A stretch of 64,000 nt of DNA from NCBI RefSeq assembly GCF_017355875.1, contig NZ_JAFEWC010000003.1, forward strand, positions 253,001-317,000, in the 5' to 3' direction. Both the position numbers and the translations under genes were made by a program. This document shows positions 31,897-61,867 of this stretch, one piece after another (position 1 is the first letter of the stretch; each line of letters opens with the position of its first letter). The stretch is from Aridibaculum aurantiacum. Lineage in GTDB: Bacteria; Bacteroidota; Bacteroidia; Chitinophagales; Chitinophagaceae. Under the pieces are notes generated by a model. The model worked only from the letters and a program-made list of their open reading frames with translations, made no database searches and had not been told where the DNA came from.

Positions 31897-31906
31897 TTTA
31901 TACTAC

Positions 31907-32129
31907 ACTACGGTAGTCTTTGACACTAGGTATTCTTAAAAAACTACCGTAGTATTTGGCTACGAATAGTGCCCCGTAGGGGCAACAGGTAGGTAGCAAA
32001 CAATAAATAATAAACCTTCTTGCTCCGTAGGAGCAAATGGTGCTTGTTGATTTTCACCGAGCTATATGAAACTACGGTAGTCTTTAAAATTTGAACTACA
32101 CTACGGTAGTCTTAGAGACTACCGTAGTG
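31907..32129. repeat. Cluster of ACTACGGTAGT hairpins between convergent genes
   Basis: Five copies of ACTACGGTAGT or its complement occur at 31907, 31943, 32071, 32100 and 32118. The last two form a perfect 14-bp stem with a 3-nt loop (32099-32112 / 32116-32129). The first two also pair, across a 25-nt loop. Lying between the convergent GH42 and PL22 genes, they may act as bidirectional terminators. The repeat extends past the stem with TCTTT in three copies. Confidence 0.75.
31970..32036 (+). repeat. Two REP-like palindromes (CCGTAGG core)
   Basis: TGCCCCGTAGGGGCA (31970-31984) and TTGCTCCGTAGGAGCAA (32020-32036) share the NNCCGTAGGNN core and ~50-bp spacing. The GGTAGGTAG or TGGTGC tail seen after palindromes at 42.0, 60.7 and 61.4-61.8 kb is present here too. 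Stem bases differ between copies but keep complementarity. Confidence 0.75.
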
Positions 32130-32142
32130 GTTTAATTCAGCA

Positions 32143-41951: not shown

Positions 41952-42183
41952 CTACCGTGTAGACACATCTTTTGCATGTCCTGTAGGGACATTTGGTTGG
42001 TAGGGAACCGAACAATTGATTGGATCTGACGTTCCGTAGGAACGTCTGGTGCAGGGTAACTAGAATTTAAGTACCAGACGTTCCTACGGAACGATAGGAA
42101 ATAATATTTCATACTTCTTCTACTCACTAAATGTTCCGATGGAACATGAAACATCGAAACAATAAGATATGTCCACACGGTAG
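41952..42183. repeat. 232-bp element bounded by 20-bp inverted repeats, containing REP-like palindromes
   Basis: The left end CTACCGTGTAGACACATCTT (41952-41971) matches the complement of the right end (42164-42183) at 18 of 20 positions. Inside are palindromes at 41976-41992 (ATGTCC/GGGACAT), 42028-42046, 42079-42093 and 42131-42147 (ATGTTCC/GGAACAT). No ORF is present. It may be a MITE-like unit or a very large hairpin at the end of the CE12 transcript. The rest of the 41839-42400 spacer holds only the repeat at 42322. Confidence 0.65.
42028..42093. repeat. REPIN-like inverted pair of REP palindromes
   Basis: A forward unit (CGTTCCGTAGGAACG followed by TCTGGTGC) and a reverse unit (ACCAGA followed by CGTTCCTACGGAACG) face each other across about 30 nt. 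This is the arrangement of a REP doublet forming an imperfect hairpin. The core is identical to the palindromes beside the IS200-like gene at 60.7-61.8 kb. Confidence 0.7.
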
Positions 42184-60716: not shown

Positions 60717-60781
60717 CGTTCCGTAGGAACGATATGTCGGTAGAAAAAGATGATCGTAAACAATCACGTTCCGTAGGAACG
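60717..60781 (+). repeat. Two REP-like palindromes upstream of the IS200-like gene
   Basis: CGTTCCGTAGGAACG occurs at 60717-60731 and 60767-60781, exactly 50 bp apart, each followed by a G-rich tail ending GGTAG or GGGTA. The 60611-60910 spacer otherwise shows only a degenerate related unit near 60678 (CTCCACAGGGAT followed by ATCTGGTGC). Confidence 0.8.
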
Positions 60782-60930
60782 TTTGGCGGGTAACAATTCA
60801 TTGAGAACGCATTCATCTTTTTTTAGAACGCCTGGTGGAAATTTAACATATAGAAAAAGACGCTATTGAGGACAAAGAAATTGTGTTAGGTTAGGATAAA
60901 ATAAACCAACATGCCTAACACATACACACA

Positions 60931-61371
60931 ATGCACATACAATTTGTTTTTGCTGTTAAATATCGTGCTGCATTGATAAGTGATGAATGGAGAGAAAGAT
61001 TGCATCAATACATGACAGGGATTTTTCAAAAGAATGAACATAAGTTGTTGCAGATAAACAGTATGCCTGACCATGTTCATGTTTTTATAGGAATGCGTCC
61101 CCATCAATCTGTTTCAGCTTTGATGCAGCTCGTGAAGGGTGAAACAAGCAAATGGATTAAAGAGCAAAGGTTGTGTAATCATCCATTTGCATGGCAGGAA
61201 GGATATGGAGCATTCTCTTACGCCAAAAGCCAGGTTGCGGATGTTGTGAGGTACATCCAGAATCAGCAGGTGCATCATAGGAAGGAAACATTTTTAGATG
61301 AGTACAGGAAGTTCTTAAATGCATTCGAAGTTGATTGGGATGAGAGGTATATTTTCAAGGAGCTGCAGTAA
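60931..61371 (+). CDS. IS200/REP-associated (RAYT-like) Y1 transposase, 5' end frameshifted
   Basis: 146 residues from the ATG at 60931. It has the Y1 HUH nuclease signatures: HVH in MPDHVHVFIG (His48, His50) and the catalytic Tyr108 in VVRYIQNQQVHH. The KYRAALISDEWRERLHQY and WQEGYGAFSYAKSQ segments and the YRKFLNAFEVDWDERYIF tail are typical of the stand-alone TnpA group common in Bacteroidota. Relatives usually begin MPNTYTQI. Here ATGCCTAACACATACACACA is present at 60911 but one base out of frame, so either the gene lost its first seven codons or it starts internally. No TnpB or cargo is attached. The gene sits between REP-like palindromes, as RAYT genes do. Confidence 0.87.
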   Translation: MHIQFVFAVKYRAALISDEWRERLHQYMTGIFQKNEHKLLQINSMPDHVHVFIGMRPHQSVSALMQLVKGETSKWIKEQRLCNHPFAWQEGYGAFSYAKSQVADVVRYIQNQQVHHRKETFLDEYRKFLNAFEVDWDERYIFKELQ

Positions 61372-61431
61372 AAGGATGAAGTATTTAAAGAATGTACTTT
61401 AATTCTTTGTCTTTAGATGGTTCAGCACCTA

Positions 61432-61831
61432 ACGTTCCTATGGAACGTGGATATGACCGTTAGATATTGCTACCGACCAGATGTTCCTAGGGAACATGGT
61501 AGCATACATGTAGAATGTTTCTTCTTTACATAAAGAACGTTTGGTTGGTAGAAGAAATGAATAGTGGTTCATCGTTCCGTAGGAATGTTTGGTTAGTAGA
61601 TGAAATCAATAGTTGTTCATTGTTCCATAAGTAACGTTCGATGGGTAGAAGAAATGAATAGTTGTTCATCGTTCCATAAGGAACGTTTGGTGGGTAGCAA
61701 ATAGAAAAAAATTGTTTATCGTTTCTTAGGAACGTCTGGTTGGTAGAATAGAATACATGTTTTATCGTTCCGTAGGAACGTTGGGTTGGTAGTAGAAGAA
61801 ATGAATAGTTGTTCATCGTTCCGTAGGAACG
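61432..61831 (+). repeat. Array of REP-like palindromes with ~49-bp period
   Basis: At least eight units of the type CGTTCCGTAGGAACG followed by TTTGGTTGGTAG occur. Clear palindromes are at 61432-61448, 61481-61497, 61573-61588, 61670-61685, 61720-61735, 61766-61780 and 61817-61831, with weaker ones near 61520 and 61621. From 61573 on, the spacing is 47-51 bp. The intervals themselves are similar (AAGAAATGAATAGTTGTTCA), so this is a tandem repeat and not a CRISPR array. It fills the 61372-61928 gap, which has no convincing gene. Confidence 0.85.
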
Positions 61832-61867
61832 TTGGGTGGGTAGCCGATTAAATATAAAAGAGTGCAA

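Follow-up and report, generated by a model that had tools for sequence, protein, structure and literature searches.

In the genome of Aridibaculum aurantiacum, a transposase gene of TnpA-Y1 subclass 1.2 is flanked by hairpins that carry a conserved tag on their 3′ side, and equivalent units occur at most of the homologous loci that we scanned across the phylum Bacteroidota. Together, these genes and units probably represent a system comparable to REPs and REPtrons, built around an IS200-type HUH single-strand endonuclease, for which the tagged hairpin would be the cleavage substrate. Subclass 1.2 has been described as generally lacking terminal secondary structures and as having 'no' REPs (Quentin et al. 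2018, PMC6006769), yet most of the loci examined here have a hairpin-plus-tag partner.

Anatomy of the locus

The stretch of DNA that was analysed (hereafter, the window) comprises 64,000 nt, corresponding to positions 253001-317000 of contig 3 of the 4.86-Mb A. aurantiacum genome. The relevant features, in window coordinates, are as follows, where HP1 denotes the tagged and HP2 the untagged hairpin, and primes denote inverted copies:

31971-32041 (+), HP1-HP2 pair in direct orientation, with different stems: GCCCC (tail AACAGGTAGGTAG), followed by GCTCC (37.6 and 15.0 bits)
41978-42145 (no strand assigned), gene-less miniature element, an inverted double-hairpin pair: HP1 at 41978 (+), HP2 at 42031 (+), HP2′ at 42073-42092 (-) and HP1′ at 42120-42145 (-)
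60718-60743 (+), left HP1, tagged hairpin unit GTTCCGTAGGAAC plus GATATGTCGGTAG (40.0 bits, the top covariance-model match in the window)
60768-60793 (+), left HP2, second hairpin 50 nt on, tail GTTTGGCGGGTAA without TAG; the two-hairpin spacing is as at other loci
60911-60931 (+), coding stretch for the conserved N-terminal MPNTYTQ, in a different frame from the rest of the gene
60931-61371 (+), TnpA-Y1 transposase gene, subclass 1.2: HUH at residues 48-50, Tyr108, Gln112 and His115-His116
61434-61446 (-), right HP2′, inverted untagged hairpin GTTCCATAGGAAC
61470-61495 (-), right HP1′, inverted tagged hairpin GTTCCCTAGGAAC plus ATCTGGTCGGTAG (30.5 bits)
61521-61843 (+), head-to-tail array of about seven tagged units, with a period of about 49-50 bp

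The order at the locus is, therefore, HP1, HP2, gene, HP2′ and HP1′, followed by the direct array, whose units lie near 61530, 61574, 61622, 61671, 61721, 61767 and 61818 (the first and third being degenerate). Exact CGTTCCGTAGGAACG palindromes, with a CCGTAGG-like core, are found at 60717, 60767, 61766 and 61817, and degenerate copies of the same palindrome near 61530, 61574, 61622, 61671 and 61721. The stems at this locus differ from one another yet stay paired. Five full units, i.e. a perfect 5-bp stem with TAG at the fixed offset, occur within 1.25 kb, whereas 200 dinucleotide-shuffled sequences contain a mean of 0.0, and a chance origin is, therefore, excluded.

A sequence-only reading of the window had interpreted this locus as a RAYT-type transposase gene within an array of REP-like palindromes. 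The palindromes are real and were placed correctly, their period of about 49 bp and the retention of pairing across variable stems are borne out, and the related units that it noted at 31.97 and 41.98-42.15 kb exist, the latter group being the inverted gene-less pair listed above. However, only two of the downstream copies are perfect CGTTCCGTAGGAACG palindromes, the upstream tails are GATATGTCGGTAG and GTTTGGCGGGTAA and not the (T/C)TGGTNGGTAG that was claimed, and the two inverted copies immediately downstream of the gene (61434-61446 and 61470-61495) were missed from the proposed layout, as was the inverted arrangement of the gene-less group at 42 kb.

The lack of a T-run after the hairpins rules out terminators, and CRISPR was likewise ruled out, as the stretches that separate the palindromes are themselves repeated; no Rfam families were found in the window. 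Beside the HP1-HP2 pair at 31,971, the interval 31,900-32,140 also contains the palindromes CTACGGTAG and ACTACCGTAGT, repeated on both strands; these are without a tag and may belong to an unrelated repeat family.

The transposase belongs to subclass 1.2

The ORF at 60931-61371 (+) matches the Pfam Y1_Tnp domain with an E-value of 1.8e-30, and no tnpB was seen among the surrounding ORFs when the ORF list was read by eye; the earlier description of a single Y1 transposase without TnpB is thus upheld. The protein contains the motifs DHVH, WQ and YIQNQQVHH, the last of which corresponds to the signature Y---Q--HH, and this signature, together with the HUH and W-Q motifs, is present in 71 of the 73 homologs in our protein tree. 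Subclass 1.2 is described in the literature as having Y---Q--HH, a length of about 148 aa and a low copy number, and is found in Bacteroidetes (Quentin et al. 2018, PMC6006769); the family described here agrees in all of these respects, and also in its conserved C-terminal part, within which Phe121, Glu124, Tyr125 and Leu129 are invariant, or nearly so, in the homolog alignment. Against the NCBIfam profiles, the window protein scores 80.1 bits for IS200 (cut-off 55) and 35.3 bits for REP_Tyr_transpos (cut-off 80), i.e. above and below threshold, respectively. Its AlphaFold2 model (mean pLDDT 89.8) is closest in fold to the IS608 and ISDra2 transposases, with E-values of about 1e-7, whereas the RAYT structure 4er8 is more distant (E 2.9e-4). 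We conclude that the protein is a TnpA-Y1 transposase of subclass 1.2, on the IS200-like branch, and not a RAYT.

All of the aligned homologs begin with M-x-N-T-Y/F-T/S-Q read in frame. In the window, a one-base frame offset at 60,911-60,935 separates the equivalent MPNTYTQ from the remainder of the transposase, such that the gene looks to be frameshifted at its start. As the first seven residues of the homologs are encoded here, but in another frame, this copy may be undergoing decay or, alternatively, may start at an internal ATG.

A hairpin with a 3′ tag recurs at homologous loci

Palindrome arrays, differing in sequence, surround most of the homologous genes whose flanks were read in relatives. 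Across 80 loci with homologous genes, taken from named genomes, the hairpin density is 3.40/kb within 1 kb of the gene and 0.70/kb beyond 2.5 kb, an approximately five-fold difference, and TAG starts exactly 10 nt past the foot of a 5-bp stem in 206 cases, compared with 3-17 at each other offset. Since this search started from hairpins, a second test was anchored on the tail motif only: a perfect stem is found at offset 10 for 153 of 242 tails near a gene (at most four for any other offset), and for 5 of 134 tails far from one. At least one full unit is present at 66 of the 80 loci.

HP1 consists of a 5-bp stem, a loop of 3-4 nt and a 13-nt 3′ tail ending in (G/T)GTAG, and the consensus of the unit is roughly (G/A)(T/C)YCC-loop-GGRRN, then nAAATATn(G/T)GTAG, then A-rich sequence; at the homologous loci, nothing is strongly conserved 5′ of the stem. 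The covariance model was built from units with 3-nt loops only, as MAFFT misaligned 3-nt with 4-nt loops, and units with 4-nt loops are, therefore, undercounted. HP1 is followed, approximately 51 nt on, by the untagged HP2, the spacing being 46-56 nt in 46 of the 49 cases in which HP2 was identified. Of the units closest to the gene, the one on the upstream side is on the + strand at 42 of 47 loci and the one on the downstream side is on the - strand at 39 of 53. Thus, the recurrent form is an HP1-HP2 pair on each side of the gene, the two being inverted relative to each other, and the array is only a part of the anatomy.

Two further observations concern individual loci. In eight of them (L055, L077, L087, L090, L095, L101, L102 and L111), HP2 reads GTGCC...GGTAC, which pairs with a G-T wobble on the outside-to-gene strand but has A-C on the other, and hints that one strand is functional. 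At L020 and L148 there are short tandem duplications with junctions directly after GGTAG, which could be traces of cleavage at the tag or of replication slippage.

Units, gene and tag are linked

For 198 Bacteroidia genomes, units were called at E at most 0.02 and the gene was scored as present on the basis of a strong match. Units are present in 51 of the 70 genomes with the gene and in 16 of the 128 without it, shared ancestry being ignored; the palindromes are, therefore, not equally abundant in relatives lacking this gene family, as they should be if the association proposed in the sequence-only reading were spurious. The corresponding counts (51/19/16/112) give an odds ratio of 18.8 and a Fisher p of about 1e-17, again ignoring kinship, and the mean number of units per genome is 6.0 with the gene and 0.55 without. 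There are 19 gene-bearing genomes without detected units, and 16 unit-bearing genomes without a strong gene match. Some more distant subclass-1.2 genes are likewise without units. One of them belongs to the same genome as the window: this third subclass-1.2-like gene (L228, at G000:C1:904,258; YIYKQEEHH) has no units around it and points to a branch of subclass 1.2 that is without the hairpin-plus-tag repeat type.

The tag also follows the protein. Base 9 of the tag, which distinguishes GGTAG from TGTAG, changes four times on the tree of 73 proteins, compared with 17.6 times in shuffled data (minimum 13). Both tag types occur within the same host genera, and even within one genome, as illustrated by the window and its paralog L040, and by the pair L072 and L104; the tag, therefore, changes together with the protein lineage across mixed host taxa. 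Candidate tag-reading residues are 2 (His/Tyr), 56 (Arg/other) and 103 (other/Asp), although the independent changes are few, and a test of the protein residues by independent pairs has too little power for this reason. The GTTCC stem of the window is common to four of its five nearest protein relatives, which belong to different genera.

Dispersal of units

The genome that contains the window has few units, nearly all of them in the window or at a paralog near C1:421.5 kb, which has a different stem (TGGGC). Relatives differ in this respect, with 61, 56, 33 and 30 units in G018, G024, G010 and G022, respectively. Many of the dispersed units form inverted pairs, with their tails pointing inwards, like the ends of the gene, in G024 and G022, and outwards, like REPINs, in G018. 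Dispersed tails are best matched to the gene flanks of their own genome in only four of seven genomes. In several pairs of species, the gene itself is found at the same chromosomal location, and comparison of these orthologous pairs revealed only unit-sized gains and losses, with no clean empty site.

In one genome, G043, seven dispersed copies are closely similar but differ in their flanks: two of them are identical over 134 bp, and most of the others are 92-99% identical where aligned. These copies show recent spread within a single genome, for which the Y1 enzyme is the presumed mover. One copy is without a segment that ends exactly at the tag. The outer borders of the copies are terminal inverted repeats beyond HP2 and, because these bound the copies outside the unit, another transposase could have moved them. 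In G169, the flanks of the copies at L217 and L218 are themselves inverted repeats, different for each copy, as if the copies had inserted into hairpins or terminators.

Relationship to known systems

Of the alternatives to a REP-like system, the strongest, albeit unlikely, is that we are dealing with a conventional insertion sequence of the IS200/IS605 type, which has the usual left and right ends and is in no way REP-like, and some copies of which have decayed to miniatures. The IS200-type HUH/Y1 protein, its fold and the Gln at +4 from the Tyr are shared with IS608 and ISDra2, a hairpin with a 3′ site at a fixed distance resembles an IS200/IS605 right end, and gene-less copies exist. However, IS608 has distinct left and right ends on the same strand and needs a guide tetranucleotide 5′ of the hairpin (PMC5934647), whereas here the ends are inverted copies of each other, and neither a conserved 5′ guide nor any signal of guide pairing was detected at the homologous loci. 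Moreover, the multi-copy, mobile gene expected of an insertion sequence is not what we see: the gene is present in few copies against many units, and several of the genes are at orthologous positions.

Two other explanations are less probable still, and about equally so. In the first, the hairpins would be mainly cis-regulatory, serving for example in translational or transcriptional autoregulation of the transposase and its neighbours, and their clustering would reflect regulation and not mobility. HP2 does lie near the start codon, and its tail leads straight into the ATG at L044, L045 and L051; however, units also lie at a distance from the gene, and they occur as arrays, as inverted pairs without a gene and as dispersed copies that closely resemble one another, and the missing T-run argues in the same direction. 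In the second, the units would be MITEs moved by some other, double-strand transposase, with the Y1 gene among them by chance. The terminal inverted repeats that surround copies in G043 and G169 would suit such an origin, but it leaves unexplained why the units are so closely tied to the Y1 gene, both in position and in phylogeny, the latter including the co-variation of tag and protein across mixed host taxa.

An assignment to the genuine RAYT/REP systems (class 2 TnpA-REP), which the sequence-only reading had made, can largely be dismissed: the dispersed and gene-flanking GTAG hairpins, their inverted pairs (as in BIMEs and REPINs), one repeat type per gene and a gene of low copy number that frequently keeps its position in relatives are all RAYT-like, but the protein is of class 1 by signature and profile, the tag is on the opposite side of the hairpin, and the units cluster at subclass-1.2 genes, with none at four RAYT-like Y1 control genes (Y-I-H-N/Y-N-P). 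RAYTs are class 2 proteins with Y---NP, and the canonical REP tag, GT[AG]G, is at the 5′ foot of the hairpin (PMC6006769); here, the tag ends 13 nt 3′ of the 5-bp stem, and a second, untagged hairpin follows the tagged one. What survives of the earlier interpretation is the tie between palindromes and transposase, as evidenced by clustering, co-occurrence and the tag-lineage changes, including a cognate palindrome that flanks the gene and seeds the genome, albeit weakly in A. aurantiacum itself, which has only few and local units. The GTAG palindromes of Di Nocera et al. 2013 (PMC3733652) are also similar, in that they end in GTAG and have associated Y1 genes; there, however, GTAG terminates the REP itself, whereas here it is 9 nt from the stem on the 3′ side, and the relevant passages of that article name Bacteroidetes only for CGTC repeats.

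Proposed mechanism and implications

For the REP-like system that we favour, we envisage that the protein binds HP1 as single-stranded hairpin DNA, and that Tyr108 would cut and rejoin at or next to GTAG, such that HP1-HP2 units would be copied or moved, and the units would owe their presence to the enzyme. Arrays would grow beside existing tags and gene-less copies would spread as inverted pairs, and the gene itself would stay low-copy and often be inherited in place.

The statement that subclass 1.2 has no terminal hairpin records an absence in a search for 5′ tags and is not a defining requirement of the subclass; the founding description probably missed the partner DNA because its search required a 5′ tag. 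In the literature covered, in which subscription journals are thinly represented, we found no description of hairpin-plus-tag units for this subclass.

The broader proposal, for which we consider the case to be evenly balanced, is that of a second REP-type origin, independent of the RAYTs and from the IS200 (class 1) lineage. Its agent would be a Y1 protein that is widespread in the Bacteroidota and often passed on vertically; this protein would target a hairpin whose 3′ tag it reads itself, in place of a 5′ guide, and would spread two-hairpin units as arrays and inverted pairs. Such a system would provide another evolutionary instance in which to ask how single-strand transposases turn into resident repeat-makers. 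Subclass 1.2 was hitherto an orphan, with intact catalytic motifs and a wide distribution in Bacteroidetes, but no known DNA partner; a defined candidate partner makes its biochemistry directly accessible, and would explain a class of hairpin repeats in many Bacteroidia genomes. Finally, the switch between GGTAG and TGTAG, together with candidate residues 2, 56 and 103, suggests a route to understanding how the tag is read.
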